Shown here: positions 9,649 through 59,897 of the stretch, in pieces
How positions within the stretch are numbered: the first letter of the stretch is position 1
Layout: each line of letters opens with the position of its first letter
NCBI GenBank assembly: GCA_018902385.1
Contig: JABSSW010000053.1
Location: 248,001 to 312,000, forward strand
From: Physcia stellaris
Lineage: Eukaryota > Ascomycota > Lecanoromycetes > Caliciales > Physciaceae
Direction: 5' to 3'
Length of the DNA: 64,000 nucleotides
Notes under the pieces: model-generated
What the model was told of the DNA's origin: nothing
Seen by the model: only the letters and a program-made list of their open reading frames with translations
Databases searched by the model: none
Translations under genes and position numbers: made by a program

Positions 9649-9993
9649 AACGAAGCCTGCAGACTATCACCATCTTCCAACACAGTTAGATTAGAGCGTT
9701 GAAAGCGCAATACAAATTTAAAAAACATTAGTCCCATGGATGTACCGCGAGTGATCCTTCGTCCTACCAGTTTGACTCCACACTCGATGAGACGCGATCG
9801 TGGCTAATCCTGTTGACGTTCTGAATAGTGATGGGATATGACATGACAAGTTGACGCGTGACAGTAATGACCGTATCGTCACCGTGGTATCGTGACGGTC
9901 AGGTCACGATTACTAATTGCCAAGACATCACGTGAAACTAGTATGATTGGATACAGCGTTCCCAGGGACGAAATTCTTCGTTTTTATTCTCTT
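9649..9993. other. PKS 3' flank, no gene seen
   Basis: Normal-composition DNA between the PKS stop and the sharp start of the AT-rich block at 9,994. It should hold the PKS 3' UTR and poly(A) site; I see no further gene. Confidence 0.5.
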
Positions 9994-10185
9994 CGCATCC
10001 AATTAGTGAAATTTAGCGTGTTTTCACGCGATTTTTCTTTTCTCATTTCAATCATCATTATTTCATCAAATTTACGTGTATATGTGTATAATTCAGTGAA
10101 GAAATTCGATAATATATAAACATTCAATAATTGAAATATGATTACATTCGAAATTCGTTTGAAATCACTAAATCATTTTCAAATT
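9994..10185 (+). mobile_element. End of a TIR DNA transposon marking the edge of AT-rich block 1
   Basis: The block begins with CGCATCCAATTAGTGAAATT and about 190 bp that match, nearly base for base, the left end of the element at 54,853. The similarity stops near 10,185. The matching right-hand inverted terminus was not found before 43 kb, so this is either a truncated copy or one split by later insertions. The outermost bases keep CC and CT dinucleotides, whereas the interior has lost them. Confidence 0.7.
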
Positions 10186-11479
10186 GTTATGACACAAAAT
10201 CAAATTAAATGATATGAAATATGACAACACTATTTTGTTTGACTTTTGACAAAAATTTTGTCGTCATTTTATATTAAATGAATAATGATCAAACAATTGA
10301 TTTGCAATTATTGTACATAAATTGACATTTTGTCGTTTATAATTTTTACATCAATCAATTCAAATTTTACGCATAACAATTGATAGCATCATTCAAACGA
10401 TGATTTGTACGTAAACAAAACGACATCATTTTTTGTTTTTTAACGTATCAATTTTCGAACAATTTTGCATTTTGTACGCAAATCATTTGATCATCAATAT
10501 TTTTTTCGTTGTCGTTGTCGAAAATTTTATTGTTCGTTCGATTCGACGTATCGATCGAAATCAATCATCAATAACAAATGTTTAGTCGAAAATGAAAATT
10601 TCAATCAAATTTTTTCAATTTTTTCAATTTTAAACAGAAACGATTGATTTTTCATTCAAATATTCAAAACATTTCGATTTTTCGTGAAAATTCGCATTGT
10701 TATCGTTCAATGACGACGCATTTGAATGTCAATTCACATTTGAATTTTTGTTTGATTCGAGCAATTTCAATTCAACGATTTCATTTGTTTTTTCAACAAC
10801 AAAAAATTTGTTCAATTATTTTGAAAATTTCAATTCGCTTTTTTTTTGTTTCGTTTATCATTTTTTATTTCAAAATTTAACATTGTTCGTCATTTTTATT
10901 TAAATCATTTTAATTGTTTTTATATTACAAATTATTCGCATTGCGTTCGAATTATTCAATTACATCGATACAATTGATTCGATTTATTTTGTCAATATAT
11001 CGACAAAAATTATTGTGAACAATATCGTAATCAATTTTTCTAAATCAACATCGTTGTCAATCATTAATTATTCGATTTCGACAAACATTGTTTATTCAAC
11101 AAAATGAATCGTCGACAAAATTCGTTTTCGTAAAAATTTTAAAATTTTCGTGATCGTCATCGAAATTTATCGAAATAATCAATCATTTTTCGATTAAATT
11201 AATGATCGTGTTACGTCATTCATTTTTGATTTAAAATCGACGATTGCAAATATTTTTTTTGATATTTTTTATATTCATTTGTCGAAAAATTTATATCGTA
11301 AATTTCAAATCATCTCGTCGACGTCGTTTTTTCAACGACGAAACAACATCATAATTTCGTTAAATATTATTTTTCGAAACACAAAAAATATCGAATTTAT
11401 TTTCGCATTTAATACAGATATGACGAATAAAAATAACAATTGACAAAACACGAAATTCACACAACAACAATAACAAATT

Positions 11480-14100
11480 TTTCAAATATTGATTACAAAT
11501 GTTCGAAACGATGTTCAAACAAAATTTCAAAATTTTGTCGAATCATCAAATTCAATCGAATTTTTTGACAATGACGATGACGTTAAATGAAATGTTCAAA
11601 AAACAAAATTTTTTGATTTGTGATACGAAAAAAAAACGTTATTATCGACAATTCGATCGAGCATTCGAACAAAAATATATATTTTCGAAATATTCATTTT
11701 TACATTGAAAAAATTAAAAATATGATATTGTTCAAAAATGTTGATGTGATTCAAACAAATTTTTATAATTGTATACGTGATTATGCATTACAATAATATA
11801 TTGAAATTGTCAATGACGATAAAAAAAAATTGATCAAATTAAAAAAAAACGTAAAAAAATGAAAACGTTTATTGTTAAAACGTTGAAAAAAATCGTCGTC
11901 AACGACGTTGACGATGATTACGAAAAAAAAATACATTATAAAAAATGTTCGCAAACATAAAAAATCATTCGATTTTGTCGAAATAATAATCAAAAATGTT
12001 AAATCGATTATGATGTCAATTTATTCACAATTTTATTTAATATACAATAAATTGAAATTGAAAATTCGACGAAATTTAATTAAATCGACAAAAAAAACTA
12101 TCATGAATAAGTTTTTCAACAATTTGATAATAAAAAAAATATGATAAAACATTGAAAACAAATATCGTTTTTATCATTCATTCGAAAACGATCGTCGTTT
12201 TATAATTCATTTATCGTTTTTAAATTTCAATTTCATTCGATTCGTATGATATTTTTTTTTTATCAATGAACGTAATGATTACGAAAATTTCAATGAATTT
12301 TTTTCGCAATCATGACAAACGCAATATTCAATTTCGTATCAATTTGACAAACAAAATAACGTTTACGTTTTTCAACAACAATAACGTTCGTATCAATCAA
12401 ATTATTCAAATCGACAACAATCGACACAAAATATGCAAAAACGTTCATACGTAAATCAACAATATCGATTTCAACAAACGCAACAAAACGAAATTCAAAA
12501 AAAATCGAAACACGTTCGATTCGCGATTTCAATATTCGCAATCTTTACGTTTTAACAATTATTTTGTTGATTTTTCAAATTCATTTTCGTTTTCGTTTGA
12601 ACAAAATATTTATTTTAATCAAAATGAAACGTTTAATTAAAATGAAACATTATATCGACGAACGTACTTTGCGAAAAAAAAAACAAAAAACAATTATTCA
12701 ATCGATAAAAAAAATAATTAAAATGATTACAACATGAATATTGAAAACGTGTCAACGATATTTATAATAAATGATGAATATCATAACGAAAAACATTTCG
12801 AAATTCAAAAATTTAATGAAAATTATGTGATTCATGAATCATTTGAATATTTTGTGAATATTTCAATCAAACAAACAAAAATTTATTTATGCAAACGTTG
12901 TCAATCGAAATTTTATTTTAATAACAAATTTCATCGACATTTGCGTTCGTGTTAAACAATTTCGATTAAATTTGACACATCGTCGACGAAAAATATTCAT
13001 AATTATCAAACATTTATTATACAATCAAATATCAAAACAAATACACGATTCAATTTCGAATTTCGTTCGTGACGTTACGTCATGATGAAAACAAACATAA
13101 AACAATTTTTTATCGATATATGTGTCGATATCGAATGCGATACGTTGTTAATCGATCGTAAATTTCTAATGCAAAAAATATTTAATTACAAAATTCATGC
13201 GCGACAAATCATGAAATTTTTTAAAATTCGCGATATCGAAAATGTCGTCGTCACAACAATTGATTATATTTCATTAATTTTTCGTGTTTTTAAAATTTCG
13301 ATTGATGACGAAAATGCAATTGTCACGTTCATTCGACAAATTTACATAATGAAAAAATTGAAAACAAAAATTCTTTTAAACAATGATATATTGAATTCAA
13401 AACAAATGAATATAAACGTAAACAAACAAATCGTTGTTATAAAAAATTGCAAAAATATTCGAATTAAATTAAATATTATTAATGTTGAATCATAAATCAA
13501 ACGCGTTGTTCGTGTCAACGAAATTATTAAAATTTCAATTAAATCAATTTTTACAATTTTTTTCAAATTACGCGAAAAAAATAATCTATTTATTGAACGC
13601 GATTTTATGTTCACGTTTTTACGAATTGAACGATTAAATTAAAATGAAAACGTATTTTTTCATATTATCGATGCACATACAGAAATCGTTCAAATTCACA
13701 ACATCAACGTTGAAAATATTTACATTTTCAAAAATACGCGTCTTGAATTCGTACAAAAATACGAAAAAAAAATGTTATTTAATTAATTCGAAATACGTTC
13801 ATTTAATTGTTAATGTTCATAAGTTTGTTTCTAGAAATTGATTTAAACAAACGTTGAAATTTAATGTTTCGATCATGACAATTGACGCGATTATAACGAT
13901 TAATTATAAAGATTTGCACGATGCGATCGCGATTAATTTCGTCGATGCAAATATCGATTTTGCGTTCAATTTTGCACGCAATTTTAACGATTTTATTGTT
14001 GTAAATTTTAATATTAATGCGAAAAAAATATTATTTGTTGAAATTATTGTTTACGATTGTTACGAGCATGTTTGACAAATAGATTTGACAAATAATTAAT
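11480..14100 (+). mobile_element. Fossil Ty3/Gypsy-type element piece (gag, zinc finger, retropepsin)
   Basis: Decayed retroelement fragment in forward orientation. From left to right it shows a gag-like basic stretch, a C2H2/zinc-knuckle-like motif near 12,890-12,955 (YLCKRCQSKF...HRHLRSC), and an aspartic-protease-like region near 13,080-13,500. No reverse transcriptase follows before the next element's gag begins, so it looks truncated or displaced by insertion. It is broken throughout, with many breaks. Heavy mutation makes it look old, though the mutation may have been fast. Confidence 0.5.
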
Positions 14101-14269
14101 TAATATAATATGTGATCGAACAACGAATTATGTTTTAATTTTACGTTGAAATTAACGTGATTTGAAATTTGACGTCGCACATTGTTTGCAATTTCAACAT
14201 TTTGTATCTATTTGTTTTTGCAAATTTATTGTTTTCGTTTAATTAATCAATAATACGTTTATTCAAACA

Positions 14270-17200
14270 CGATTCATGATATTACAATAAATTTTCAATT
14301 TTATCGCTCGTCGTGATACGCGAACGTTCAAAAATAAAACTTTAAATCGATCAAATTTTTTTGACGAGACAAACGACGAAAAAATTTTGTTGATCAAACA
14401 AACGATCAAAAACTTTTTTGACGAAACATTTGACGAAAATCGTGAAATAACAAATCGAATTTTCACGCAAACGACGATATTTTCGACGATAAAAAACGAC
14501 GAAAAAAAAATTGATTTGATTAATTTTTTTTTAATATTTTTCAATTTTTTATTTTTAGTTATAATTCGAAATCATCACGAAACAATTTTTTTCGAATTTT
14601 TTATTTCGATGAAACAACGTTTCAAAACGTTACGTTTCAATATAAATCGTATGTTGACGAAATCAACGACAATTTTTTTCGACGAAAATTTCGTCGAACA
14701 ATTCAAACGTCGTCGATTTGTTTCAACGATCGAATTCATAAAAATGAAAAATAACGAAATCATTCATTTTTTGAACATCGTCATTATCGATCAATTGAAA
14801 TGATGAATCAATCAAAAAGTTATCGATTTTTTGAAAAAATTTGATCGATTACGCATCGATCGTGACAATTATTTAAACGTTTTGATTCAATATTAAAATT
14901 TGTACAATATCGTCAACGTCGATCGTGACGAATTGATCAATACAAACGTTGAATTCGATGAAATTCGTAAAAAAATGAATACATTGAAAATTAATTTCGA
15001 ACAAACACGTGATCGATTTTTAATCAAACAACACGATTATATTTTTTTTAAAAAAAATCACGACGTTTTGTTAATCACGACTCGCGATCGTACACGAAAT
15101 TTTGATAACGACGATAAAAAAAACGACAACGAAATCAACGTAATTAATTTTTTCAATAAAAACAAACGACGTTCGAAAATTCATTCAAATTCTTTTAAAT
15201 TCATCGACGAAATGAAATTTATTTGACGAATTTGAAAAACAAAAATACATGATAAAATGACGATCAACGTTAATCATTACGATACGAACATAATCGCAAT
15301 TATTATTGTAATTGATTGAATTGAAAATAATATCGATAATTACATACAATCGATACGTGATATCGACATAAATTATTTCAAAAATTGTCACATGATGTTG
15401 AAATTTTTGAATTTTATTTTCGAAAATTTTGATTTCAAACGCAATATGCGTATTCAATTTCGAACATTGATTATAAATACACAAAATTTTCAATTTTTTT
15501 ATTTCATTTTTATTTCGTTTTAACAATTCAATCGATTATAACGAAATCATCAAAATCGAAAAATTAATGAAATTTTTTTTTTGAAATTTAAAAAAAACGA
15601 TGAATGTACATTTTCGCGAATTCATCACGTTCGATAAAATTCAAATCATTTTGCAACAAATATACAATCGACAATCGAATTTTCGAAAAAAAAAATCGCA
15701 ATTCGTCAATAACGTTTTGAATTGTTTCAATTCAAATCATTTTTTGTCGTTTCGATTTCGATGTTTTTTGTGAAATTTGTTATTTCGATTTTTTTCGCGA
15801 AATTTGCAATTCATTTTCATTTCAACGTTGAAATCAAAATTCGTGATTCGATGATTGACAAATTAATCGTTACGAACAAATGTTTCACATGCGATAAAAT
15901 CGATCACGTATAAAAAAAATGTTCGAACGTTTACAAATATCAAAAACGTTATTGACACAAAATGCAAATGTTTTATATAAACATGATTAACGAATCGAAC
16001 GAATTTGATTTAAAAAAATGATAATTCACATCAAAAACGCGATTGATGAATATTTAAAAAAAAATTTAATTCATCATGACGAATTGTTTGATTTTTTTGT
16101 CAAACGATTTTTAATCATCAATTGTACGTTGTCATTCAACGATAATAAACATAAATTAAAAATTTTAATAAACATTGATGCAATTGATTATGTTTTCATT
16201 GATAAAAAAATTGCGCAATTTGTATGCAACATGTTGAACATAAATTTCGTATTTTTATTAAAATCGAAATTCATTATTGAATTCGACGATCGTCAAATTT
16301 TTTCAATAATTCATGTCATTTATTTCAAATTAACAATTGATTTGTATTTCGAATTGACAATTTTTTTGTTCATCATCGATTTGAACAATCATTCGATAAT
16401 TTTAAAAAAATCGTGAATGAACAAACATGAAATTGTTTTGAATATAATTTACGATAAATTGATTTTCAAATCGTTCAAATGTAATTATCATGACAATATA
16501 TTCATCAAAACAATGCAAATTCGACGTTTGAAAACTTTTGATTCAAATTGTCGATAAAACGTATTTAATTGACGTCGCGATGTTTTTTTATCGAAAACAA
16601 ATAACGCGAAACATATTGTTACAATAAAATTTCGATATACGATTTTATCTCGTTCGCAATTTAATTTCTCAACGTTTTATGTACAAAACGAATCAAACGT
16701 ATTCGATTCAAAATGTTTCAATTATTTCATTCATTCGAAAATCGATTAAAATGACGAATCGTTCGTCGTTGAATAAAATCATTCAAAAATTGATATCACA
16801 ACGATTACGAAAACGACGTTCGTAAAAAAAAAAAATTTGAAAAAACAACGCAACAAACGTTGAAAAATCAAAAAACAACAATTCGAAATTTTTTTATTTT
16901 CGAAATTGAATTTAAACGATTCGATGAATATCGCGATAATTGATACAATTTTTTTTTATTTATTCGTCGATTTTAAAAATCGAAAACAAAAAATGTAATG
17001 TTTTTTTATTACGATCAATCAAATCGATTTCGCATTCAAAACATTGCGAACAAATTTTGAATTGTTGAAAATTGTCGTCATAATCAAAAAATTCTGAAAC
17101 ACGAACAAATTAAATCGATTTTTAAACGTATAATGAAAAAAATATCGAAATATTTCAAACATTTGTCAAAAATATTCGATTTTCAAAAAACAATTGAATT

Positions 17201-19172
17201 GTTGTCGCATCGAATTTACGATCACAAAATCGAATTTTTAAACGATAACAATACATTGTTTCGAAATCGAATATATTTTTTGTTCGAATTCAAATTTCAA
17301 AAATTCAAAAAATATTTGAAAAATAATTTTCAAAAAAATTTTATTGTATTCAATCAAATAACATACGTTTCGTTCGTTTTATTTGCAATTAAATCAAATG
17401 ATCAATTACGTTTGTGTGTGAATTATCGACGATTTAATTACATCACGAAACGCAATCGATATTTCATTTTTTTGATCGAAAAAATTTTAATTAAAATGCA
17501 AAATTGCAAATATTTGATTAAATTAAATATTATATCGATTTTCAACAAATTTCGAATGAATGAAAAAATGAAAAATTTATCACGTTCGTTATTTTCATGA
17601 AATCGTACAAATATCGAATATTATTTTTCGAATTGATTAACGAATTCGCGAATTGACAACATTATATAAACGATTTATTGTTCAATTTTTTGAACGATTT
17701 TTGTCAAATTTATTTAAATGATATTTTTATTTATAACAAATTTAAAAAAAAACACATCGTTCACGTTCGTAAAATGTTGAAAAAATTCAAAAAAATTGAA
17801 TTACAAATGAATATTAAAAAATGCGAAATTTTTAAAAAAAATGACATTTTTGAACGTTATATTATCGATAAATGATTTTCGCATGAATTCGAAAAAAATA
17901 AAAATTATTGTCAATTGAAAACGTTTTACAAATTTGAAAAAAATGCAAATTTTCGTGAATTTCGTCAATTTTTACAAACGATTCATTCGTGATTTTTCGA
18001 AAAAAATTCGAATTTTCATTCGAATGATCAAAAAACTCGTGAATTTCGAATGAATTGTTGAAATCGAAAAAATTTTCAATTTTTTCAAAAAAACGATAAT
18101 CGAAATTTTCATATTACGACATTACGATCGAATCAAACAAATCATTTTGAAAATTGATTTTTTTCATTACGTTAATGCGAAAATATTATTTCAATACAAC
18201 GACGAAAAAGTTTTGCATTTCGTTGTTTTTTATAATTGTAACATGATTTCAATCGAATACAATTACGAAATTTATAACAAAAAATTGTTGATCATTATTC
18301 GTTGTTTAAAACATTGACGTTTTGAATTTGAAAATATTGAAAAATCGATCAAAATTTTCATCGATCACAAAAATTTGAAAATCTTCATGACGTCAAAGAA
18401 ATTAATTTTTCGTCAAATTCGTTGAACAAATTTTTTTTCGAAATTCAATATTGTCATTCAATTTCAATTCGAAATTCAAAACGTTAAAACAAATATTTTA
18501 ATTCGTATATTTGATTTACGATCAAAAAACGATATTGACGAACGACATCAATATCGAAAAAAAATATTGTTTATTTTAAAACGATTCGAAATTCACGCGA
18601 TGAAAATTGACGAATTTATTTACGAACGAGTTTTTGTTGTCAACAAAATTGACGATAATTGCACAATTTATCGTGAAATCATCGAGCAAAATTTCTTTTC
18701 AATAAATGAAATTGATTTACGAAATTGCATTGAAAAAAATGACGTTTTGTATCGAAAAAATCGATTTTGAATGTTCGTCGATGTTTTTTTATTCGTTGAT
18801 TTTTTCAAAAAAAATCATGAATTTTTTGTTTCGAAACATTCAAATTTTAATCGCATGAAAAATTTTATACGTCGCGATTTTTATTGATTCAATATGCGCA
18901 AAACGATTTGTCGATACGTACGTAATTGTTATGAATGTTAACGCACGAAAATTTTCAAAAATCGCAAAAACGATTTGTTTATTTTTTTGATCATATTTTT
19001 GCAACATTGAATCGACATATCAATGAATTTTATTATCGAATTATTCGATGTTCACGATCATAACGTCATATGCACGATAAATGACAAATTTAACAAAAAA
19101 CGTCATTACGTGTTTTGTATCGTCGACGACGAAAATATCAATATTGAAATCACGATCAAAATATTCATCAAT
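14270..19172 (+). mobile_element. Fossil Ty3/Gypsy LTR retrotransposon 1 (gag-pol body)
   Basis: Forward-oriented Gypsy body with its parts in the expected order: gag with a coiled-coil-like segment (about 14,390-15,700), zinc knuckle near 15,880-15,910, retropepsin (about 16,100-16,420), reverse transcriptase (about 17,150-17,900, with the YDHKIE and LRLCVNYR blocks), RNase H (about 18,100-18,450), and integrase with its zinc-binding part and the start of the core (about 18,700-19,172). The integrase is interrupted at 19,173 by an LTR of another element. Its own LTRs were not identified. Broken, with dozens of breaks. Confidence 0.75.
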
Positions 19173-19737
19173 TGTGACGAACGTACATCGAATTCAACAT
19201 TTAACAAAATTAACATCGAATTAACATCGTTATTTTATCACATCGAATGTTAGAATCGAAACTCGTTTTGACGCATTCAAAAAATCAAATTTTCTACATA
19301 TGTTTTTGCAAATTTTGTATTTGTTTTTCATTTCGAAATATTTTCGTGTAATTATGTAATAATATCATATCTTTGCATAGCAATTTCACATTATATCGAA
19401 ATGAAACGTTTTTTCATGTTCGTTTGCAAATGATACGCGAACATTCAAATAAACAAAATTTTTGTTTCAAAATTCAAAAATTGATAAAGAAACATAATAA
19501 TTTTCGTATCGTTTGATCATTCAAAAAAACAACAAAACGTAACAAATTGATTTGAATGCGAAAAAACGAAAATAATAAATTCGTTTGTCGATTCAAAAAT
19601 ATTTTGACAAACGAATTTCAACGATAATCGATTCACGAAAATAATTTTTCGAACGTCGATTCAAATTCGAAAAATTATTAATTGTCGAAAAAAATTTTTT
19701 TGTTTCAGAAAATGACTCGATTACATCATCAAACACA
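19173..19737 (+). repeat. LTR copy A (about 565 bp)
   Basis: Begins TGTGACGAACGT and matches the sequences at 35,529 and 40,930. It lies inside the integrase region of Gypsy 1 and directly before the gag of Gypsy 2, so it is most simply the 5' LTR of Gypsy 2 inserted into Gypsy 1. The right edge is approximate. Confidence 0.6.
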
Positions 19738-22700
19738 TATCAAAATTATTTCGAAAAAATGACATTAAATACAAAAAAAATCAATTAAAATTAATCAAAA
19801 CAATTTTTTTATATTCGAATTTTTATCATTTCGAACGACATTATATTTCAATCGATTATTTAAGTTTTTTATATTTCGCAATTTTTTTTTTTTTCAATTC
19901 ATTCGAAAATTTAATTTTTTATCATCATGATTTTTTCAATTCGTTTGAAAAAACGTCAACGATTCAACGAAATAATTGAAATTGAATATTTTTGAAATTT
20001 TAATCAAAAAAATCGTTTTGAATATTGAATTTTTTTTCGATATTTATATGATCACAACAATGTTCGATTTTACAAAATCGAATTTCATAATGATTTTGAC
20101 GTCAATTGACATATTCATTTTTCGAAATTAAAAAGAACGATTTTTGAACAATTTGCACGATTCTGAAAAGTTTGAAATTTTTTCGAAAAAATAGAAACAA
20201 AAACATCAATATCAATTCGAATTTGAAAAATTTCAAAAATACATAAAAACGAAAAAATTTAAAACATTTTTTAAAATTCGATGAAATCAACGTTCAATTT
20301 TCGAAACAAATCGAAATTCAAATTCATAAATATCGTACTAAAATCAACAAACGATTCGTCGTTTAATTCGTAAAAAAAAAAATTTTACAAAAAAAATTTT
20401 TTCGAATGATCAGATTGTCGACGTTTTCTCAAAAACTAATTATAACGAAAAAATTGATTTTTTCAAAATTCGTTCAAAGAGCAAAAAATTAATTTTTAAA
20501 TACATCGATTTTTTTATTTTTTATGAACACAAAAATTCGAACATTTTCGATTACATTCGATATAATATTTGAAAAAATAAATGCGTAAATAAATTGAAAA
20601 TCAATGCGAATTGATATTTTATTAAACAACAACAAATCATTGCAATCGTTCAATGATTAAAAAACAAAATCGTCGAACACGTTCACACTCGACGTAAAAT
20701 TCAACGTCATTTTTTTTTCGATTACGAAAAAATTTTCAAATTGTTCGATATCATTTACGTCGATGTAAATTATAATCGCAATATTTGACGTCAATACGAC
20801 GATTTCAAAATGAAATTCTCGAATGTATATAGCGAATTTTATTCGAAATTTTTATTATTGATTAATCAATTATTCAACAAATTTGATGACGACAAAATTC
20901 ATGATTTGAAAAAAATTCTTCTCGTTAAATTCAAATTGATTATGAATAATCTGAATAATTTCATTTCGTTTGATGTTTTTCATCGAAAAATTCAAACAAT
21001 CGATAATCGTCATCGACGTATTCAAAATGACGACGATAATTTTTTCAAATTTTCGAATCATAAACAGACATTTCGAATTCGTCGAAACGAAAAATATTTT
21101 GCGAAATTGATCATCAATTACATCAATTCAATCAAAAAAAAAATTTACAAAATTGTCATAATTCGTTTTTTTGTAAAAAAGAAATGTCGTCGTTGTGATA
21201 ATTTGAAACATTGATGAAAAAAATGCAAATCAAACAAGTCGTTATTCGAATGAATAAACGATTTGATTAAAAAAAAATATTCAATTTTCAAAATATTGCA
21301 ACGATTTTCGATTATGTTAACAATATATTCATTGTTTTTTCATTTTTCGATAAATCGAAAAATTAATTATCTTTTTCGAAAACGCGAAAAAGATTATCAG
21401 AATTTGTTCACGAAATTTTCAACATAACATTTTTAACGAATTTCTTTGTAAATTTTTAATTAAAAAAATAAATTTGTTTTTTGACAATCGAAAAAATCAT
21501 GATTCATGATTTAATTGATATCGATGTTTTTGAATATGTTTTCATTAATGAAAAAATTGCGAAAAAAATTTGTCATAAATTAAATTAATTTCAATATTTT
21601 TATCGAAATTCAAAAAAAATTTTTAATTTCGAAAAAAAAAAATCAAATTTATTATTCATCAAATATTGTTCAAAATGACGATACAAAATCATTCAAAATT
21701 TTTCGTTTTTTTGTTTATTATCAAAATAAAACAACATTCGTTGATTTTAAATAAATCATGAATAAACAAACATGAAATGATTTTCAACATAATCAATGAC
21801 GAATGTTATTTCACATCAAATCATTCAAAATCATGACGAAACATTTTTTTTATCGTTTCGATCGTCGATATTTCAAAAATTATTCAATTCAAACAAACAA
21901 TCGAATAAAACATTTTATTTATCGTTTTTGAACGATTTTTCACGTCGTTTTTTTTTTTTTTAAAACGTTCAAAAATATCAAATATTTCAAAAACGATCAA
22001 TTTCGATTTTTTTCGATCGATTTTTTTCGTTTTATCGTTGAAAATGAATCGAAAAAAACGTCAATCGTTAAAAAAAAAAATTTTTGAATTTCGATTTCAA
22101 ATATGTCATCGAAAAATAAACAAAAATTATTTTCGAATAAATTTTTCAAAAAAAAAAAAATGAAAACAATACGCGAAACACAAAAATCGAATTTGATTAA
22201 CGTTTCGAACAAAAAAAAATTCGATTTATTCAAAAAATTTACGCGACGTTTTAATCGAAAATTTAAAATTACGATTTTCGAACATGAAAACGACGAACAA
22301 AATTTCGATTTTGATATATCATTAAATGTCGTTTTTATTGACGCGATTGTTTTTCAATCGTTAACGAAATTTAAAAAGAAAAAAAAAAAATCAAAATATT
22401 TTTTTTGATCAATGAAAAAATTAAACGAAATTATCGACAACGTCAAAAAAATTTAATCAAAATAAAAATTGATTTCGATTTGAATTTCAAAACTTTTTTT
22501 TTTTAAAATCATGAAAACAATCGTCGAAAAATTAAAACGTAAAATTTTTGAATTTTTTAAACGATTCGAAAACGTATTCAATTCGAAAAAATCGACAAAT
22601 TATTTTTCATAAATTTTACGATCACAAAATCGAATTGACGAAAAATTCGAATCAATTATTTCGAAATCGAATTTATTTTTTATCGTTTAAAAAATTCGAA

Positions 22701-25100
22701 ATTTTTCAAAAATATTTACACGATAATTTTCAAAAAAAATTTATCAATTCAAACAAAACGTTTTATGTTTTTTTCATTTTATTCGTCGTCAAATCGAACG
22801 AACAATTTCGTTTGTGTGTCGATTATCGAAAATTGAACGTCATAATCAAACGTAATAATTATTTTATTTCGTTGATCGAAAAAATTTTCGCAAAAATTAT
22901 CGATTGAAAATTTTTGTTCAAATTGAATATTATATCGATTTTCAATAAATTTCGAATGAATTCAAAACGAAAATTTTATTATTTTTATATGTTCGTTAAA
23001 CATTTACAAATATCATGTATTGTTTTTGAATTAATCAATGATTCGATCAATTGACAACATTACATGAACGATTTGTTGTTCGAATATATTAATCATTTTT
23101 GTCAAATGTATTTGAATGATATTTTTCATTTACAACAAAATTCGAAAACAACACGAACGACATTTCATTCAAATATTTCAAAAATTAAAAAAAATCGATT
23201 TTTTCAAATCGATATCAAAAAATGCGAATTTTTTTCAAACAAAAATTTTTTTTCGACGTCATATTATCAACAAAAAATTTACGTAATGAATTCAAAAAAA
23301 TACAAAATATTGTCAATTGAATTCGTTTCAATTTGCATCAAAAAATGCAAACGTTTGTAAATTTTTGCAATTTTTATCGACGTTTCATCAAAATATTTTC
23401 GAAATTCGTCAAATTTTTAATTCGAATAATCAAAAAAAAATTGATTTCGAATGAATCGATTTGATTAATGAAACGTTCGAAATTTTGAAAAAACAAATAA
23501 TCGAAATTTCAATTTTTCGACATTACGATCGCAATCGTAAAATTATTTTGAAAATCGATTTTTCAAATTGATATTTAAATGAAATTTTATTTCAATACGA
23601 CGACGACGAAATTTTTCATTCGATAATTTTTTTCAATAAAAAAATGATTTTTGTCGAATGCAATTACGAAATATATAACAAAAAATTTTTAATCATTATT
23701 CGATGTTTAAAACATTGAAAATTCGAATTCGAAAATATCGACGAATTCGTCGAAATTTACATCGATCACAAAAATTTAAAAATTTTATAACAAACAAAAA
23801 TTCATTTTTCGTCAAATACGTTGAATCGAAATTTTGAAATTGATTTACAATATCAAAATTCAATATCAATTCGAAATCAAAAATTTTAAAACGATGTTTT
23901 GATTCGAATGTTTGAATTTCGTTTCGTCGAAAACGACGAACGAAAATTTTATAAAAAACAAATTTTGAATTTTTTTTTCGATTGCAATTATGTTCGATTG
24001 ACGTTCAAAACGATTTGTACGAATCGTCATGCAAATCAATCGAAAAAACGAAAATTGTATTAATTATCGTCAAATTTTGATCGATAATCAAATCATCAAC
24101 GAAAAAAATAAATTTGCAAAATTGTTTCGAATCGAAATGAAATTCAATTTAAAAACGAAAATTTTTGAATATCAAATCGATTAAATTTTATGATTGAAAT
24201 AATTCGATGACGTGATTTAAATCAATTTTTTTGTGCACATTCGAACATGAATCGTATTGAAAAATTCATTAAACGTTATTATTATTGATTTAATAAAAAT
24301 TAAAATCAAACGTTATATTCGTAATTGTCACAAATGTCAACGATCGAAAAAAACACGATAATCGTTCACGAATTATTAATTTCATTGTCGATTTTTAATC
24401 AACGATAAAATTGATATATCGATAAATTTCATAATCGAATTATTTGATTTCAAAAAAACAAAATGTCATTTGTATTATTATCGATCGTTTAAACAAAAAA
24501 ACGTCATTACGTTTTTGCGAAATCGATGACGATAATTCAAAATAATTCAAATTTGTGTCAAAATATTGTTACATTACGTATTTCGTATTCAAAATTATTT
24601 TTTTCATCATTTCAAATCGAAATGATCAATTCGTAAATCGCGTTTGAAAAAATTTTTGTAAACGATAAAAATCAAATGTAAATTAAATTGTTTTTCAATT
24701 TGAAATTGATGATCAAATCGAAAAATCAATCAAAATAAATTCGATTACGTTTGTATTGCAAATTATCGTCAAAACGATTGAATTGAATTAAATAAATATC
24801 ATGAAATTCGTTGAAAAATGATGTTTCAAAATCAAATTATTTTTTTTTTCAGAATAAAAATATTAATTTTCGAATGATTTTTGAATCAAATTTAAATGAT
24901 TACGAAATCACAAAAAAACGTTTGTTGATTAAACAAAACGAATTCATTGTCAAAAAATGAATCGTATCATCGAATAAATCAAAATCAATATTGTCGATGC
25001 AAAACAAAAAATGATTGCATTCGAATCAACAAATTTCGTTTGTTCAATAAATTTTGAAATAAAAATTTTTTTGATTAAATCGTCGTTATATAAAAACGAT
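19738..25100 (+). mobile_element. Fossil Ty3/Gypsy LTR retrotransposon 2 (gag-pol body)
   Basis: A second Gypsy subfamily, forward orientation: gag with a zinc knuckle near 21,190-21,215, protease (about 21,480-21,760), reverse transcriptase (about 22,600-23,360, with YDHKIE and FRLCVDYRKLN blocks), RNase H (about 23,500-23,900) and integrase (about 24,200-24,700). LTR A sits at its left. The 3' LTR may be the copy at 35,529, which would mean about 10 kb of later insertions between. Broken, with dozens of breaks. The right edge is approximate. Confidence 0.7.
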
Positions 25101-26379
25101 TCGTTAAATTCAAACAAACTCGATGACAAAAAATTGAATTCATACAAAAAATCAAAAAAAAAATTTCGTTTATGAATTGAAATTGAAAAACGATAAATGC
25201 AATAAATTCATTCAATGAAATTTTTGATTGTTGAAAAAAAATTTTAAAATTTTGAAAAAACAAATCAACGATTTTCAAAAAATTTTATCGAAATGAAATT
25301 TGAATTTTAAAACGATAATAATTCGCAATTTCGATATTATTACACATTACAAATCGTTCAAAAAAATTGATTCGATTTGAAAATTACGCGAAATTTAAAT
25401 GATATTACGTCGACGACGACGAATTTTGTTCAAACATCGCGATTATTTATTTCATTTTTAATTCAAAAACAACAAAATTTGTCGAAATCGATTAAAATAA
25501 ATGAATTTTCAATCAATGAATCAAAAAATTATTAATCGAAATTTTAAATATTTTTTCAAATTGATTTGAAAAATTTTTTTTTCATTCGTTTCGTGAATTT
25601 TGTTTACGAATAATTTCGCATGAAAAATTGAATTTGTCAACGATTTTCAAAAAAATTGTCAAATCAAATTTTACATAAACAAATGAATAATAACGTAAAA
25701 TTTTCAATGAAACGAATAAATAAAATTAAAAAAAAAATTCGAACATTTAAATTAAATTCGACAAATTTTTCAATTGTTTATAATGACACGTCGAAAATTT
25801 GTAAAATTCGTTCAAAAATATCGCATTTTTCAAAAAAAAAAATTCATTTTCGTCAATTGTTTTTATACAATCAACGTCAAAAACGTTTGCAAAATCGATT
25901 TTGATTTGACAAAATTTTATCGATCAATTCAATAACGAATTCGTTTCGATTTTCGATATAATTTGATGTTCAAAATTTTCAAAACGTTTATTCAATTCAA
26001 ATTAACAAATCGCGTTTTTAATTTTCGAAATTTTTACGAAAATCAAAACGAACATTTTTCGAAAATTTCGAATACATTCACGATTTAATCGACAATTTTC
26101 ACAATTTTCGCATACGCGAAAATTTCAAATTTCGAAAACGTATTTTTAATATTTTTTCACGATCAAATTGTTCAAACAAATCGAAAAACGTCGAATATTT
26201 TTTCGAATCGATAAATTCGCAAACGAAACGCGATTTCAAAATAATTTTCAACAATGTTTCGATTTTTATTAAATACGTCATTTTGATCGAAATGCGTAAA
26301 ATATTTGTTCACGATAAAAAACGAAAATTTCAATCAATTTTTTCGAAACGTTTGAAAAAAACGAAATTTTGATCGCGTT

Positions 26380-29300
26380 TGAATTTCAACATTTGACAAA
26401 ATTTTCATCGAATTAAATTACGATTTTATACGATAAACGAATGAAATTTCGATCGTAAATTCGTTGTTTTTTCAAATTAATAATTATTGTATTTCATTTT
26501 TGACAAAAAATTCACATTTTTTCACATTTTCAATTAATGTCATATTTTAATCATTGTTATTTCGAACATGTTCGTTGTTTTTGAACATATTAATAATTTT
26601 TTTTTTTTTTCATTTTTTTTTTTGTCGTTAATCAAACGAAATTTTATTGATGCAACAACAAATTTTATATTTTTGAAAAACACAAATAAAAATTGAAACG
26701 TTTTTTAAATCGCAAAATTGATCAAAATTGACAAATTCGTCAAATTTAAAACGAAATCGAAATCAAAAATTCATTGATTCGAACGAAAATTATCGACATT
26801 AAATTACATTTCATTTCAAAAAAAATTGCGTTTGTCAAATCGAAATTTGAAATCGAAATCGTTTTATTTTTCACGAATTCGAAAAATAATTTTATGTCAC
26901 AATAAAAAAAAAATTTTTTCGAATAACGACATTTTCGAATCAATTTCGTTTGTCGTCGATATCGAATCAAAATTTGATTTCAATAATCGACAAAAATTCA
27001 AAATTGAAAATGCATCAAAATCAAAAAAAACGAAAAAATGACGAAAATAATGAAAAATCAAACGAAAAAACGATAAAAAAACGTTTAAATAAATATGTTT
27101 ACAACGACAAAAATTTTTATGTCAAACGATTTGTTAATCACGAAATTTAAATTCAATCAAAAAATTTTAATGATTGTTTTGCGAACACGACGAATTTCGA
27201 ACGCAAATTTTTCGATTTGTTAAATACAAAACAATATTCGAAACAATTCGATTGTATTAAAATATCAAAATTCAATCAAAAAAAAAAAATTATCAAATTA
27301 ATGTTTGACGATGTTCACGATGTTGCGATTCATATTAAATAAACAAAAAAACGAAATCATCAATGCGAAAAATTCGAAATGAAAAAAATTTGTTTGTATT
27401 TTATTTGATGATTTTTTTCATTCAATTGATATCGTCGAAATTCAAATCGTATTTCGTTTATTTTTTTAATCATGTTTTTCACGTACAAAAACATGATCGC
27501 AAATCAAAACGATTTCAAAAAAAACGTCAATCGTCGAAAAAAATCGTCATGTAATTCAAAAAAACGAAAATCATTTCATAAAAAAAATTCGATTCAAACA
27601 ATACAATTGATTTTATTAATTCGTTTTATAAATGCAAAATGACGATAAAAATGAATCAATATTGATTATCGTGTTTTCGACAATGATTTTGAATTGAAAA
27701 AAAAACATTGAAAAATTTATCGATAAAAATACAAAAACAAACAATCGAATGTTTTTATAATAAATTTGAAATTTATAATAAAAATGTCGTCAAAATTTCG
27801 AAATGAAAACAAAAATTGATTCGATATTCGATCATCAATATTTATTCAATTGAACGAATCGAAACGTTTCGATTCAAACGCGTCATTAATTTGAAATGAA
27901 AAATTTCAAAATATGTTTTGAATGCGTCAATCAAAAACGATTACGTTCGCGAATATTTTAAATCGAATTTATCGAAATTTTTTGATAATCACAACAATTT
28001 TTTATATGAATATTTATATGCAAATTCATTTGATGTTCAACGAACACGAATATTATATCGAAACGAAATTGAATAAATCGAACATCGTCAAAAATATTTT
28101 ATTAATGTGTTCGATTCATAACGATCGTGAATAAAACGCATTTCGTGCGCGATAAAAACGTCGATCATTACGATTTAATTAAAAAAATTCAACAAAATTG
28201 TAATTAAAACGTGAAAATCGCATTTTTGATCGAAATTTCGTTCGACAAACGATTTTTCGATGATTTTGCAATGTTAAAATTATGCAATATGACGCGAAAT
28301 AAATAAAAAAAAAATTGACGACATTAAATGAAAATCGTTATTTTCAATTTGACAACGCGTACATGAAATTCGAAAACAAATAAAAAAAAAATTTCGTCGT
28401 ACAAACAAATTCGTCAAAAAATCGATGATTTGTTTCAAAATTTCAACGATGTTTTGTCAAAAATGATGATACGATATACATTCGAATCATCGTGATTCGA
28501 CAAAAATATCAAAAAATCGTTGTCACATTTAAACATCGATGTAAATATGATTTTTTTTTCGAAATTTTCGTCATTGTTGAATAAATTTGATGAAATCATC
28601 AAAAATCAAATACAAATCGCAAAATCAACATTTCGAAAATTTGTTGATTCGACAATAATCAACAAAAAACGTATTTTATTCATGACAAAACTATATCGAA
28701 TAACATTCAATTTTTCGTTCATGTTGAAATTTTGAAACGATTCGATCAATTTGCAATATCAAATGACATTCGCGAACATGAAAAATTGAATTAAAAATGA
28801 CGAAATGAATTCGAAATGTTCGTTATATTTTCACATTCAAAAAAATATTCGTCATCAATTTTAAATTAAAATACATAAATCGAATATTAAATGTTTGAAA
28901 TGACAAAAAAAAAAAAAATTATTGATGTTGAATGAATTCGTTGTTGTCGTGTTTTTCGTTATTCAAATACGTTTGTTTTTGATAATCGTATCGATCATAT
29001 TTATTGTTAACATAATTACAATATGTCAATCAACATTTTCAAAAAAAAATTATTGTTTTTTTTCATTCAAAAATTTCGAATAAAAAGCGAATTTTTATCA
29101 AACGCGATTTTTAACGTTACGTAAATTCACAAAAAATTTCAAAAATATTGAAATTTTCAAAACACGATCGTGATGCATTTTTTTTAACATTTCGTTTGAT
29201 AAAAACAAATGTGATTTTGACGCAAACGAACAAATACATATTGATGAAATCACAACATATGTCGTTTGCGAAAAAACAAAAAAAATATCGCGTGTTACGC

Positions 29301-29520
29301 GTGATTCAAAAAAAATTTATTAAAATCGTTAAATTCGTTTGTTCGACGATTAAAATCGAAATTGTTATTGTCAACACGTCGAAATTGAAACAGTATTTCG
29401 TCACGACAACGATGAAAACAAAAAATGATGACGAAAAAACAAAAAATGATGATCAAAAAACAAAAAATGATGACGAACAAACAGAAAATAACGAAAATAA
29501 CAATATGATAAATGTTTGAA
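26380..29520 (+). repeat. Unclassified 3.1-kb repeat, copy 1
   Basis: Co-linear with 30,710-33,640. Shared landmarks include a poly-T stretch after ATTTCGAACATGTTCGTTG, AATATGTTTACAACGACAAA, and CAACATATGTCGTTTGCGAA near the right end. Short coding-like relics run in the forward direction but I cannot assign a family. A 20-21 bp tandem (three copies, about 29,411-29,482) encoding KTKNDD-like repeats sits near the right end of this copy only. It could be a DNA transposon or the non-RT part of a retroelement. Confidence 0.55.
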
Positions 29521-29569
29521 ATATTACATTTATTGCATTCAATTTCAATAAAAACACGTGATTCGTATG

Positions 29570-29890
29570 AATTAACATGAATTCAAATAAATGAATGATT
29601 GCATGAAATCAAAAAAATTCGAATGAATAAATAATCGAATTTTGAATGAATTGAATGAAAATAAATGAATTCGAATAAATGAATAATTGCATGAATTTCG
29701 AATGAATAAATAAAAACGAAAAACGAATTATTTGAATCGAATGAATAAAAACATGAATTGAATAATGAACATGAATTCAAATGAATGAATAAATGCATGA
29801 ATTCGAATAAACGAATTATTACATGAATTCGAATGAATGAATGTTCACATATGAATGAATTTTATTTTTATGAATTAATTTCATTTCATT
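29570..29890. repeat. Degenerate GAAT-rich simple repeat
   Basis: About 320 bp dominated by GAATGAAT and ATGAATTCGAATAAATG variants, lying between the two 3-kb repeat copies. Low-complexity, not coding. Confidence 0.75.
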
Positions 29891-30283
29891 TTAATATCGT
29901 TTTTTGTCAATCGTGTTTGAATTTTTATTAAATATGAATATCGCATTTTTTTTATCACAATCATGATATCAATCACAATACAATATAAAAACGAACGTCA
30001 ACATCAATTTAAATTACAAAAATCACGAATGTTTTTATCACAAATCGACGAAAACATGATGATCGAACACATTATTGCGATCGCGATATCAACAAATTTT
30101 CGATGTTATTACAATACATACGTTGTAACATTTTGACGTATCGTAAAATTTCATGCGATATTTTTTCGAACGCAAATGAACAAAAATATGTCGCAATGAT
30201 TCAAAATCATATAAAATTCAAATTTTTTAATTTATTTTTATGTAATCAACATCGAAAAAAATTTAAAATCGTTTTTAATTTTT

Positions 30284-30515
30284 TTGTTTATTCAATTCAG
30301 TATCAAATTATCGTTTCGATTTTTGACAATTTTCACATCGAAAACAATGTTTATTTTGTTCAATATCGAATCGTCGTTTCGATTTTCGACAATTTTCACA
30401 TCGAAAACAATATTTATTCAATTCAATGTCGAATCGTTGTTTCGATTTTCGACAATTTTCATTTTATTCGAATTTTCGACGATTTTTATATCGAAAACAA
30501 TATTTTTGATTTTTT
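30284..30515. repeat. Tandem repeat of about 64-66 bp, three copies plus a partial
   Basis: Copies of a unit containing GTTTCGATTTTCGACAATTT and ATCGAAAACAATATTTATT start near 30,290, 30,356 and 30,420, followed by a shortened fourth ending near 30,515. Confidence 0.75.
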
Positions 30516-30709
30516 TTCGCGATGAAACAAATGAAATTAATATCAACGTAAAAAACATATCGATCGTCAAATTAACAATTAATACGTCAAATGTGATTTT
30601 CAACAATACGTTTGTTTTTATTCGATACATTTTTTTGATCAAATTGTGTCAAATATTTGTTCAACGAAAATTGAACAAAAATTGTCAATTATTTTTTTTT
30701 GTCGCGTTT

Positions 30710-33640
30710 GAATTTTTTGTCGCGTTTGAATTTCAACATTCAATTATTATCGATTCGAAATCACGAAAAAATACACAATAAATTTTTTACGTTCATCGCA
30801 TTTGATTCATCGTTTTTTCAAATTAATATTTTTTGTATTTCGTTTTTTTTCAATTCACATTTATTCACATAATCAATTAATTTCGATCATCGATATTTCG
30901 AACATGTTCGTTGTTTTTAAAAATTAATAACGATTTATTTTTTTTTTATTCGTTTTTTCAACGTCGTTCATCGAGCGAAAATTTGTCGAAATAACAACAA
31001 ATTTTTATCAATAAAAAAATAAAAAATAAAAATAAAAAATCAAAAATTGCAAAAATTGATCAAAATTTGCGTTCGTCAAAATCAAAATCAAATCGATATT
31101 GTATTATTATCAACGACGATAACGATGACGATTCGACGCAAATCATTTCGATTGTTGTTTTTCAAAATAAAAATAATGATACATTCGATTTCAAATTTTT
31201 TCAACATGTCGATTGAAATTCAAAACGCGTTTGCATGAATGACAATCGACGAAACGAAATCACAATTCGAAAATGAAAAAAAAAATGATACGATCGATGA
31301 AAACAATGACGACGCGTTAATGAATCGATATGTTTACAACGACAAACAACATATATACACGATTTGTTGATCACGAAATTTAAATTTGATCAAAATGAAT
31401 TGATAACGAATTGTGAACATGACGAATTGTGAAAATCGATTGTTAATTTCGTCAAATATTTGTCGAAAAACAATCGAAATAATTTATGCATCGAAATATT
31501 TGAATTCAACGAAAAATTAAAACAATATCAATGTTTGACAATGTTTACAATGCGATTATTCATGATAAATAAAAAAAAAACGATGTTATCAATGCAAAAA
31601 AATCGAATATGAACAAAATTTGTTTTTATTTTATTTGACGATTTTTTTCATTCAATTAACATTATTTGAATTCAAATTGTCGAACAATTTGTCATGTTTT
31701 TTGATTACAAAAATATGATCGCAAACTATACAAAAATGCAAAAAAATGAAATGATTCATCGACAAATCGTCGTTATCGTGATAAAAATGACGAAAATCAT
31801 CGTGCAATAAAAAAAAATTATAACACGTTTGTATGTGTGATTTCAAATATTTTTTTTAAAAATACGATTTCGTCGATAAATTCATATCGATCATAATATT
31901 TTCGCGATGACATTAAATTAAAAAAAAAACATTGAACAATTCATCGAAAAAAACGAAAACGACAAACGTTCGAATTTTTACATAATCGTTCACAAAATTT
32001 ACGACGAAAATTCAAACAAAATGTCGAATTGAAAAAAATCATTGATTGATATTCGAACACAAATATTTAACAAATTGAAAACAAATAAAAAATTCGATTC
32101 AAATGCGTCGTTAATATGAAACGAAAAATTCAACAATTATGTTTTAAAAACGCAAAACAAAAAAAAATATTTTCGCGATCGTTTTCAAACAAAATCATTC
32201 AAATTCATGATTATCATTACAAAATTATCGTATAACGAACATGTGCAAATTCATTTGTTGTTTAAAAAATACGAATGATATTCAAATTTGAAACAATATA
32301 AATCGAATCAAAATAAAAATATTTTTTGAATGTGTTCGACGATATCGATTGTCGACAAAACGCATTTCGTGCGACAAAAACATGTCAATCAATTCGATAT
32401 AATAAATCGAATTCAACAAAATTGTAATCACATCGTCAAAATGAAAAATTCACATTTTCAATTATTTTCGAAACGTCGTTTTAGTCGTCGTTCAAACGAT
32501 AAACAAAATTTATCATTTTTTCGCATGATAAATCATTTTCACAAAATAAACATCAAAACGTATGTATTAAATCAAATTAAAAAAATTTGAAATGTTCGTC
32601 AATTATGAAAATTGTTATAATCAAATTCGACAACGTTTATATCAACATCGAAAAACAAATCAAAAAAAATTTTCGTCGTACAAACACAATCGTCAATTGA
32701 TCGATAATTTGCTCGAAAATTTCAACGATATTTTATCAAAAATTATGATTCGACATATTTTCGAATCATTATGATTTGACAAACACATCAAACAATTTTT
32801 GTCACATACGAACGTGAATGTGAATGTGAAATTTTCATCGAAATTTTCGTCATTGTTAAATCAATTTAGTAAAATTATCAAACATCAATTACAAATCGTC
32901 GAGTTAACGTTTTTAAAATTTGCGAATCAATCAATAATCAATAAAAAACGTATTCTGTCAATGACGAAACTATATCGAATAACATTCAATCTTTCATTCA
33001 TATTGAAATTTTGAAACAATTCGATCAATATTCAATATCAGATGACATTTATCGACATGAAAAAATGAATCAAAAATAACAAAATGAATTCAAACTGTTC
33101 ATTGAATTTTCGTTTTGAAATGATTTTAATTATCAATTTTAAATCAAATTACATCGATCGCGATATGAATGTTTGAAACGAAAAACAAAATAACAAAATA
33201 TTTATGTGAATAACGTTTGTTATCGTTGCGCGCTTTGTCGCATTGATACGTTTATTGTTAATAACGAAATCAATTGTGTATATTATTAACATAATTATAA
33301 TATATCAATTGACATATCATTGAGAAAATCGTCGTATTTTTTCATTTTGAAATTTCAAACAAAAAACGAGTTACGATTAAACGTGATTTTCAATGTTATG
33401 TAAATTCATTCGATTTTACAAAATTGTTCAAGTATTTTCAACACGATCACGATATTATTTCATCAATTTTTTTTTTGAATATTGATATGATATTAACACA
33501 ATTCGACAAATGTATTTTCATGATGTCACAACATATGTCGTTTGCGAAAACGCAAAAAAAATCGCGTATTGCGCGTGACACAATAACAATTTGTTGAATT
33601 CGTCAAATTTGTTTGCAATTAATTAAAAATTGAAAACATT
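30710..33640 (+). repeat. Unclassified 3-kb repeat, copy 2
   Basis: Diverged second copy of the repeat at 26,380-29,520 in the same orientation, 4.1-4.3 kb away. It retains slightly longer coding-like relics (for example near 32,330-32,590 and 32,799-33,014) whose counterparts in copy 1 lie at about 28,100 and 28,520. No family is recognised. Confidence 0.55.
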
Positions 33641-33959
33641 GTTATTGATACAAATAAACGATATCATTATTTTTTCATGACAATAATAAAAATAATGCTG
33701 AATAAAACGAATAAAAAATGCAAAAATGATATGAAATGAAATGAATGTTTCGATGAATTCATATATGTTCAATTCGTAATGTTTACAATACAATGATGCA
33801 AAAATCAAATATCGTTTTTCGATAAAATATATCATTGCATCAATTTTATGCGCTCGAAATCGATTAAAATTTCTTGATAATATGTTTTGCGAACATGAAA
33901 TCGATTCAAATATTATGTAAAATGATCAAAAAAGTTAAAAGTTGATTTCAAACGTTTCA

Positions 33960-34340
33960 AACGCTTTGATCAAAATCGATCAAATTTCGAGTCGATAAAC
34001 AGTGAAACACTTTTTCGACGATGTAATCAATGATTCGATTACTGATTTCGATAACGTAAAAAATGACAAAGAAAATAAAATCGATCGAAATGACGAAAAA
34101 GATAAAAACATTGATTGTTTCGAAACGAATTTCGATTCTGAGATTTGCGCAAAAATTTTCGACTTTTTTGCATAACAAATGCGAATATGTTCGTGAAACT
34201 TGATGTTGTTGTCAAATTTCGTATTGTTTTTGCAACGTCGACAAATATATTTTTCAATTCGTTTTTTGATCAGACGAATTTCTTTTTGTTGTTTCAACAA
34301 TTTTTTCGTTTTTTGTTTTATTTTGTTTTTTATTGTCAAC
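33960..34340 (-). mobile_element. Reverse-oriented zinc-finger relic of a retroelement
   Basis: The minus strand encodes a lysine-rich lead and a YICRRCKN...KFHEHIRIC motif, resembling the C2H2-like finger in the fossil at 12,890 but in the opposite orientation. It is probably part of another inserted element. Broken; boundaries unknown. Confidence 0.4.
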
Positions 34341-40500: not shown

Positions 40501-40929
40501 TTAATGAACATCGCATGTTTTGAATTTTACAAAAAAAAACGCGTTTTTGTCATACAAAAAAACGCGATATTTTTGCATATTTCAATTGTTTTAATAATTT
40601 TTTCACATTTCGATTCAAACGCAAACTTTTTGAAAAATTTTCATGTTTTGAGAAAACGATCGTTTTATCATATTAAACATTAAATATTTTTGACATTCAA
40701 CGATTTTCGCAAATTCAAAATCAAATAATTTGCAAAAATTTTTTCGTTGTTTTCGTCGTTTTCGTCGTTTTCATTTCGAATTTTTGTACGTTTTTATCGT
40801 TGTCGCGTTCGTTATGAACTCAACGCATTTACGAACGAATTATCGAAATTACGTATTTTGTTGATCGACAGAAATGAAAAAAATCAATTGATCGTTTCGA
40901 AACGAAATTGAAAAAAAACGAAAAATAAT

Positions 40930-44690: not shown

Positions 44691-44699
44691 CAAGCGTTG

Positions 44700-45998: not shown

Positions 45999-46059
45999 TC
46001 CCCTACTCCTTCTATGTACATGCAAAGGAAATAATATTTGAAACTGAAGAGAAAAACCC

Positions 46060-59890: not shown

Positions 59891-59897
59891 ATTTCAT

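Follow-up and report, generated by a model that had tools for sequence, protein, structure and literature searches.

Depletion of cytosines before pyrimidines in repeats of Physcia stellaris points to a RIP-like mutator with an unusual target

The hypermutated tract and its repeats

The window analysed here, a stretch of 64,000 nucleotides from the lichen-forming ascomycete Physcia stellaris (Lecanoromycetes, Caliciales, Physciaceae; contig JABSSW010000053.1, positions 248,001 to 312,000), contains a long AT-rich tract in which cytosines followed by a pyrimidine (CpY) have almost disappeared, whereas cytosines followed by a purine (CpR) are kept. In Neurospora, repeat-induced point mutation (RIP) changes C to T on both strands of repeats and leaves AT-rich tracts; the tract described below is very probably the product of a comparable, repeat-directed mutator, whose target is CpY. 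The tract and the repeats recognised within it are listed by position in the window, with the strand where one applies.

10,001-43,000: hypermutated tract, delimited by dinucleotide counts, with a fade-out at about 43.0-43.3 kb
10,200-34,000: most complete CpY-depleted part (CC 0, GG 0, CT 55, AG 54 in 23.8 kb)
34,001-43,000: CC-free part with more residual CT (115) and AG (133), a 2-kb piece of which has many matches in the genome
15,500-18,500, plus strand: segment of a retrotransposon of the Ty3/gypsy type, for which the genome contains no fewer than 40 long matches, this one among them
17,133-17,600, plus strand: remnant reading frame of the reverse transcriptase region of the gypsy-type element, recognised by eye and through matching un-mutated copies, and without a Pfam match of its own
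21,353-24,989, minus strand: member of a second family of retroelements, sharing 83% identity with L039, a copy elsewhere that is less mutated
26,000-28,000: lower-copy repeat, found with at least 81% identity at no fewer than 5 places, its own among them (best 40 of 47 candidates)

Over the whole tract there are 0 CC, 1 GG, 173 CT and 191 AG, while CpA and CpG are kept. The part from 10,200 to 34,000 holds 1568 CA, 1153 TG and 1391 CG, that is about 66 CpA and 58 CpG per kb, and its base counts would lead one to expect, under independence, about 380 CC and 280 GG. As far as 34 kb, CpT and ApG each occur at about 2 per kb; past that point, each stands at about 13-15 per kb. The mean guanine plus cytosine (GC) content of the window's AT-rich part is 24%, and the flanks have a normal composition, with 48-50% GC. 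Both edges are sharp, within a few hundred bases: the number of CpY per 100 bp runs 18, 5, 1 over 9,901-10,200 on the left, and 8, 10, 15, 26 over 43,001-43,400 on the right.

A preliminary description of this DNA, made by reading the letters, rested on hand counts in two blocks, 14,641-14,940 and 22,021-22,320. The recount agrees with it: the blocks hold 45 + 36 = 81 C, with 49 CpG, 0 CpC and 0 CpT, and the G side shows 1 ApG and 0 GpG; the 32 CpA reported there correspond to 31 inside the blocks and one across a block end. The extension of this pattern over about 24 kb is also confirmed, the tract (10,001-43,000) being longer than had been claimed and accompanied by a second one at 54,906-57,000.

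Fate of individual cytosines in copies of the gypsy-type element

The long genome matches to 15,500-18,500 (at least 40, from the best 40 of 426 candidates) can be set against two un-mutated copies of the gypsy-type element, L036 and L037, which have long open frames. Polarity was read at sites where these two agree, for C on either strand, and 17 mutated copies were followed, namely the window's own and 16 chosen across high and low identity. Pooled over the 17 copies, C had become T at 5331/5581 CpC and 4556/5489 CpT sites, with 468/5614 for CpA and 142/5516 for CpG, and changes were seen at 247/20545 A/T sites. In the cleanest copy, L025, the corresponding figures are 336/336 CpC, 329/330 CpT, 17/338 CpA and 1/332 CpG, and 3/1232 A/T sites. 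This comparison supports the earlier proposal of a cytosine-targeting process with a 3' pyrimidine context, on both strands: in strand-split counts of the 17 copies, the two strands were mutated to a similar degree, with some differences that were largest in L044.

The order of the targets is given by partly mutated copies. In L044 and L046 pooled, 87.8% of CpC, 49.6% of CpT, 2.1% of CpA and 0.7% of CpG sites had changed, and the order is CpC > CpT >> CpA, CpG. CpC is lost about 90-100 times faster than CpA in such copies (2.11 vs 0.021; 2.94 vs 0.034). The description of CpC and CpT as both gone is thus refined, CpC being lost faster than CpT. Among 8 partly mutated copies, the phi coefficient at CpT sites was 0.02-0.22 in 27 of 28 pairs, which argues for independent hits; the value of 0.79 between L044 and L045 indicates a shared history, so that these two are not independent in the following triplet counts. 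In L044-L046, the first C was lost from 95% of CCA and CCG, 88% of CCT and 74% of CCC triplets, and the lower values for the last two are expected if the second C often becomes T first, leaving the slower CpT.

The influence of the 5' base is modest: pooled changes range from 77 to 87% across NCT and from 94 to 96% across NCC, and at CpT in partly mutated copies from 50% after G to 73% after C. TpC is spared when a purine follows (TCA 143/1712, TCG 33/1803), similarly to other CpA and CpG sites. The slow loss of CpA has a context of its own, with changes in seven heavily mutated copies at 79/460 CAC, 106/579 CAT, 59/734 CAA and 58/640 CAG, i.e., about a two-fold preference for CpApY over CpApR (185 of 302 changes before a pyrimidine). 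The consequences for coding capacity follow the CpY rule as well, since 146 of the 156 new stops in an 833-codon frame arose at TGG codons and none was TAG; stops across 150 listed rows, including RVT_1 matches, looked similar by eye, being mostly TGA, with TAG in few rows.

Copy L044 additionally carries a patch, in bins 1500-2000, where 8/54 CpY sites of the minus strand are mutated vs 37/47 of the plus strand. This clustering on the minus strand was reached in 0 of 500 shuffles, and the patch is absent from the sister copy L045. Gene conversion or action on one strand could explain it.

Other repeat families and dependence on repetition

The second retroelement family behaves in the same way. 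When L039 is compared with the copy at 21,353-24,989, changes are found at 215/229 CpT, 33/34 CpC, 73/406 CpA, 35/397 CpG and 156/2427 A/T sites, and the comparison of L039 with L019 gives 78/90 CpT, 12/12 CpC, 19/221 CpA and 10/220 CpG; as L039 is itself mutated, polarity is less firm here than with L036. A third family comprises, among the matches listed, one copy without mutation and eight relatives close to full length, at 70-75% identity.

Stretches within the tract have from several to many genomic matches. A genic control, 51,000-53,000, had no genome match besides itself and is un-mutated, and L038, an element with an RVT_1 match that was typed by eye as resembling a long interspersed nuclear element, has only 35-71 bp matches elsewhere and keeps a normal CpY content of 244 per kb. 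As in RIP, repeats are therefore mutated and single-copy DNA is spared, with the exception of the un-mutated pair L036 and L037, to which we return below. In another reverse-transcriptase-bearing stretch, L040 (G000:C24:427501-431000), of GC about 0.40, CC and GG are low, CT is high and AG is low; partial or strand-skewed depletion and coding bias are alternatives for this pattern.

Extent in the genome and response of CpA-based indices

The assembly searched comprises 44 Mb in 147 contigs and so differs in extent from the published one (46.57 Mb in 184 scaffolds). It was sampled by 20 hand-placed ten-kb stretches on 20 contigs, one of them on the window's own contig, outside the window. Of 200 one-kb windows, 25 had a GC content below 0.36, located in five of the 20 stretches, and these contained on average 40 CpY (range 5-91) and 252 CpR per kb; in the 172 windows whose GC was at least 0.42, the means were 251 CpY and 245 CpR per kb, and in three windows of intermediate GC they were 170 and 229. 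CpY loss with CpR kept was observed in all 25 AT-rich windows, and those with the highest CpY (in L017 and in part of L020) have the appearance of DNA mutated only in part. As far as sampled, CpY loss is genome-wide. The dinucleotide check suggested in the preliminary description thus gave the pattern it foresaw: ordinary CpA-to-TpA bias was found neither in the 25 AT-rich windows nor in the aligned copies, and confinement to one contig is excluded by CpY loss in all five sampled stretches that have AT-rich windows.

CpA-based RIP thresholds were passed by none of these 25 windows and by none of the 42 windows with GC below 0.36 inside the 64-kb window, even though the RIP product threshold applied, 1.1, is slightly looser than the published 1.15. 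Mean TpA/ApT was 0.39 and the mean substrate index 1.46 in the 25 AT-rich windows, a direction opposite to that of classical RIP. Detectors built on CpA indices thus miss mutation of the CpY type, and the absence of RIP reported for other fungi may need to be re-checked with CC/TC and CT/TT ratios.

Methyltransferase genes

A search of the genome with the PF00145 profile gave four matches representing three genes, all with catalytic motifs. The names DIM-2 and RID are those that we take to apply from family knowledge, no database match being so named.

L002: DIM-2-like gene, PF00145 match
L003/L004, P0001: RIDb, a RID-like gene, PF00145 match
L001: RIDa, a second, divergent RID-like gene, PF00145 match

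The RIDa gene is apparently intact, with two GT-AG introns recognised by eye. In a quick tree of 91 rows (three requested rows having been dropped, two without the motif and one short), it lies inside a clade of 38 rows supported by a Shimodaira-Hasegawa-like approximate likelihood ratio test value of 99; 28 of the 87 inner branches are open, some branches are long, and P0022, the row from Dirinaria, was trimmed at an incorrect motif that comes earlier in the sequence. In most rows of this clade, the loop after the catalytic PPC resembles AQ..KP.DFEDKQ instead of AHT..GK.DE.N. The only other species-named row in it is from Heterodermia, of the same family as Physcia. RIDb falls among proteins from lichens, including Usnea, with Xylona further out, and a protein of Gyalolechia (Teloschistales) is of the RIDb type among the matches listed, from which the absence of RIDa there does not follow. 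In the accessible text of Van Wyk and colleagues, RIP by CpA indices is reported in Gyalolechia and Cladonia. A PDB sequence search related the family to C5 methyltransferases of the DNMT1 type and of bacteria, and went no finer.

A scan for relatives of RIDa in viral contigs gave one matching stretch, which is not a relative. Three matches to the OTT_1508-type deaminase family lie above the cut-off (L041, L042 and L043).

Comparison with known systems

Physcia shares with RID-dependent RIP in Neurospora crassa the C-to-T change on both strands of repeats and the presence of RID- and DIM-2-like genes. The preference is different: Neurospora follows CpA>CpT>CpG>CpC (as quoted in the accessible text of PMC5496416), although one study, as far as its available part goes, places CpT above CpA in Neurospora Tad1 copies, whereas the pooled Physcia copies follow CpC>CpT>>CpA>CpG, with CpY nearly exhausted. 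Trichoderma reesei offers another case of repeat-directed C-to-T mutation with a preference of its own, CpA and CpG being about equal and followed by CpT, then CpC (PMC5496416, same limitation); the Physcia order is close to its reverse.

The CpT part of the rule has precedents. A comparison of fungal genomes (PMC4352252, in the text available) names CpA, CpT and CpG signatures, with CpT predominant in Magnaporthe and in one Botrytis strain. Magnaporthe oryzae, Botrytis cinerea and Sclerotinia sclerotiorum resemble Physcia in having CpT as a predominant or secondary target and a RID-type enzyme, but CpT change occurs there, as described in the portion available, together with CpA change. In Basidiomycota, mutation of repeats at CpG/TpCpG and the hypermutation of Rhizoctonia solani are likewise C-to-T changes with a rule other than CpA; CpG is a spared context in Physcia. 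The accessible part of the Rhizoctonia paper, which stresses CpG, includes a table in which, among the four contexts, the spacing is tightest for CpC changes (214 bp vs 370 for CpG); genes and repeats are hit alike there and there is no saturation, unlike in Physcia. The mutated fraction of Cladonia rangiformis peaks near 16% GC, according to the part of the source available, and the higher mean of 24% in Physcia is expected if CpR is spared.

A k-mer screen of 1,239 genomes published in 2025 concludes, in its accessible text, that RIP-like defences share a CpA preference, a rule that the Physcia genome breaks almost completely; the word Physcia is absent from the main text of that screen, and the sequencing and assembly sections of the Physcia stellaris genome paper contain no discussion of RIP. 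A search of the open-access literature found no report of a rule for repeats in which CpC and CpT are mutated and CpA is spared, the closest published cases being the CpT-dominant fungi and the CpC spacing in the Rhizoctonia table. What is new, to the extent that it was not found elsewhere, is the CpC part with CpA spared, the CpT part being already known. The preliminary remark that this mode was unfamiliar as the dominant one in any ascomycete accordingly holds for CpC, and less so for CpT, given the CpT-dominant cases in the sources available.

Proposed mechanism and alternative explanations

As judged from sequence, the target, the action on both strands, the order of contexts, the near-saturation, the presence in repeats and the absence from two controls can be regarded as established. 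We consider it highly probable that P. stellaris has a RIP-like, repeat-directed CpY mutator, including the action on both strands and a slow CpA/CpG component. Such a mutator would change C to T on both DNA strands of repeats at every C followed by a pyrimidine on its 3' side, most rapidly at CpC and then at CpT, and would act over repeated rounds until CpY is exhausted; a much slower component would alter CpA, more so before a pyrimidine, and, to a lesser extent, CpG. It would presumably belong to the RIP pathway and act in the sexual cycle, and we infer that the 3' pyrimidine is recognised by a cytosine methyltransferase of the RID family. Two traits of RIP are found here, C-to-T change on both strands and a RID homologue (two RID-like genes by similarity and tree), in addition to the mutation of repeats; CpA preference, by which RIP is usually recognised, is lacking. 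The feature behaves like RIP without being a member by every test, and the methylation without mutation known as methylation induced premeiotically (MIP) does not describe it, the repeats being mutated.

Several observations weigh against this interpretation or parts of it. L036 and L037 share 95% identity along 4.8 kb, yet both lack CpY mutation, and a fully penetrant system of repeat recognition should not allow such a pair; their differences show no CpY bias, and they may be recent arrivals, or the process may not be fully penetrant. CpA is changed at 5-19% of sites in eight copies with at least 94% of CpT changed, so that the early statement that CpA and CpG are kept stands in that they are largely spared, but CpA is not immune. 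In L049, CpA and CpG are changed equally (23/337 and 24/331), and the strands of L044 are unequal. The proposed link between RIDa and CpY, finally, comes from the presence of the gene, its odd catalytic loop and a quick tree.

Which enzyme sets the rule can be suggested tentatively. RIDa is the leading candidate, at somewhat less than an even chance, the others being RIDb or DIM-2 with a changed preference. Of the earlier suggestion that a RID/DIM-2-type enzyme with an altered recognition part be sought, the genes have been found and RIDa offers a concrete candidate, while the altered recognition can so far only be proposed. Slightly more doubtful is a fuller scenario in which a second RIP-type pathway run by RIDa, its rewritten loop reading the 3' pyrimidine, would have taken over from the CpA pathway as the principal mutator of repeats in this lineage, nearly exhausting its target.

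The most serious alternative retains the same repeat-directed mutator, assigns the CpY rule to DIM-2 or RIDb and leaves RIDa to do something else, and we hold it to be quite plausible, if short of an even chance. All three genes are present with catalytic motifs; a 2026 review, in the portion available, gives CpT as the preference of DIM-2; a RID motif has been proposed for the CpT signatures seen beside CpA in Magnaporthe, Botrytis and Sclerotinia (PMC4352252, accessible text); and, in the parts of the sources at hand, CpT dominance is reported for alignments of RIP-positive control fungi and Neurospora Tad1. These published CpT cases, however, accompany CpA change or come from known CpA-RIP fungi, and no CpC signature was found in the text available. 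Zymoseptoria DIM-2 methylation, in the accessible part of its description, favours CG, CA and CC and hardly CT, with mutations at CA, and RIDb groups with lichen proteins such as that of Gyalolechia, a genus RIP-positive by CpA indices. The same 2026 review, in its available portion, records no in vitro activity of the RIP enzyme so far. With two RID-like enzymes and one DIM-2-like enzyme in one genome, Physcia offers a direct handle on what sets the RIP target.

The lesion might instead lie on guanine: a G that follows a purine (GpG > ApG) would be altered so that it is read as A, in the way of the O6-methylguanine that alkylating agents produce. Both strands are mutated, so the damaged base cannot be read from the outcome, and single-base substitution signature 11 (SBS11) of cancers, which arises from O6-methylguanine, consists, in the description available, of C>T at CpC and CpT, as in Physcia. 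Chemical damage is nonetheless not expected to single out repeats or to halt at a tract edge, and a difference of about 90-100 times between CpC and CpA is sharper than is usual for alkylation, which makes this explanation highly unlikely. No enzyme producing O6-methylguanine in repeats is known to us, and repeat targeting and saturation are, to our knowledge, not part of SBS11.

Still less probable is APOBEC-like deamination of retrotransposon cDNA. The targets studied are retroelements and the genome has the three deaminase matches mentioned above, but cDNA editing marks one strand, and both are mutated here; APOBEC enzymes choose their sites chiefly through the 5' base, the effect of which is modest in Physcia. 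The APOBEC_N profile had no match in the genome, nor in any of the controls, and is therefore uninformative. Ultraviolet damage at dipyrimidines in a sun-exposed lichen, for which CpC and CpT would qualify as sites, is contradicted by the sparing of TpC before purines and by the unaffected genic flanks, and has a negligible probability. Equally negligible is a sequencing or assembly artefact or plain drift in base composition: there is a single assembly (Nanopore R9.4.1 at about 31-fold, Illumina at about 30-fold), made, according to the available sections of its description, from axenic cultures grown from ascospores, but its two rounds of Illumina polishing speak against an artefact, the copies can be ranked by degree of mutation, CpC being ahead of CpT and CpT ahead of CpA, and the A/T and CpC counts of L025 argue against drift. 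These last explanations (ultraviolet damage, cDNA editing, artefact and drift) are rejected on strand, context and graded-copy evidence.

Other features of the window

The remaining parts of the window comprise the flanks, a further depleted tract and satellite arrays.

2,649-9,648, plus strand: un-mutated flank with pieces of a highly reducing polyketide synthase gene
43,400-54,850: un-mutated flank, of which 51,000-53,000 matches only itself in the genome
54,906-57,000: second CpY-depleted tract (CC 0, GG 0, CT 12, AG 7)
57,308-63,671: region near the contig end with satellite arrays, built of units of about 183 bp (dimers of 365 bp) and incompletely depleted of CpY

In the two main satellite arrays of this last region, CC occurs at 16 per kb and GG at 20-22 per kb.

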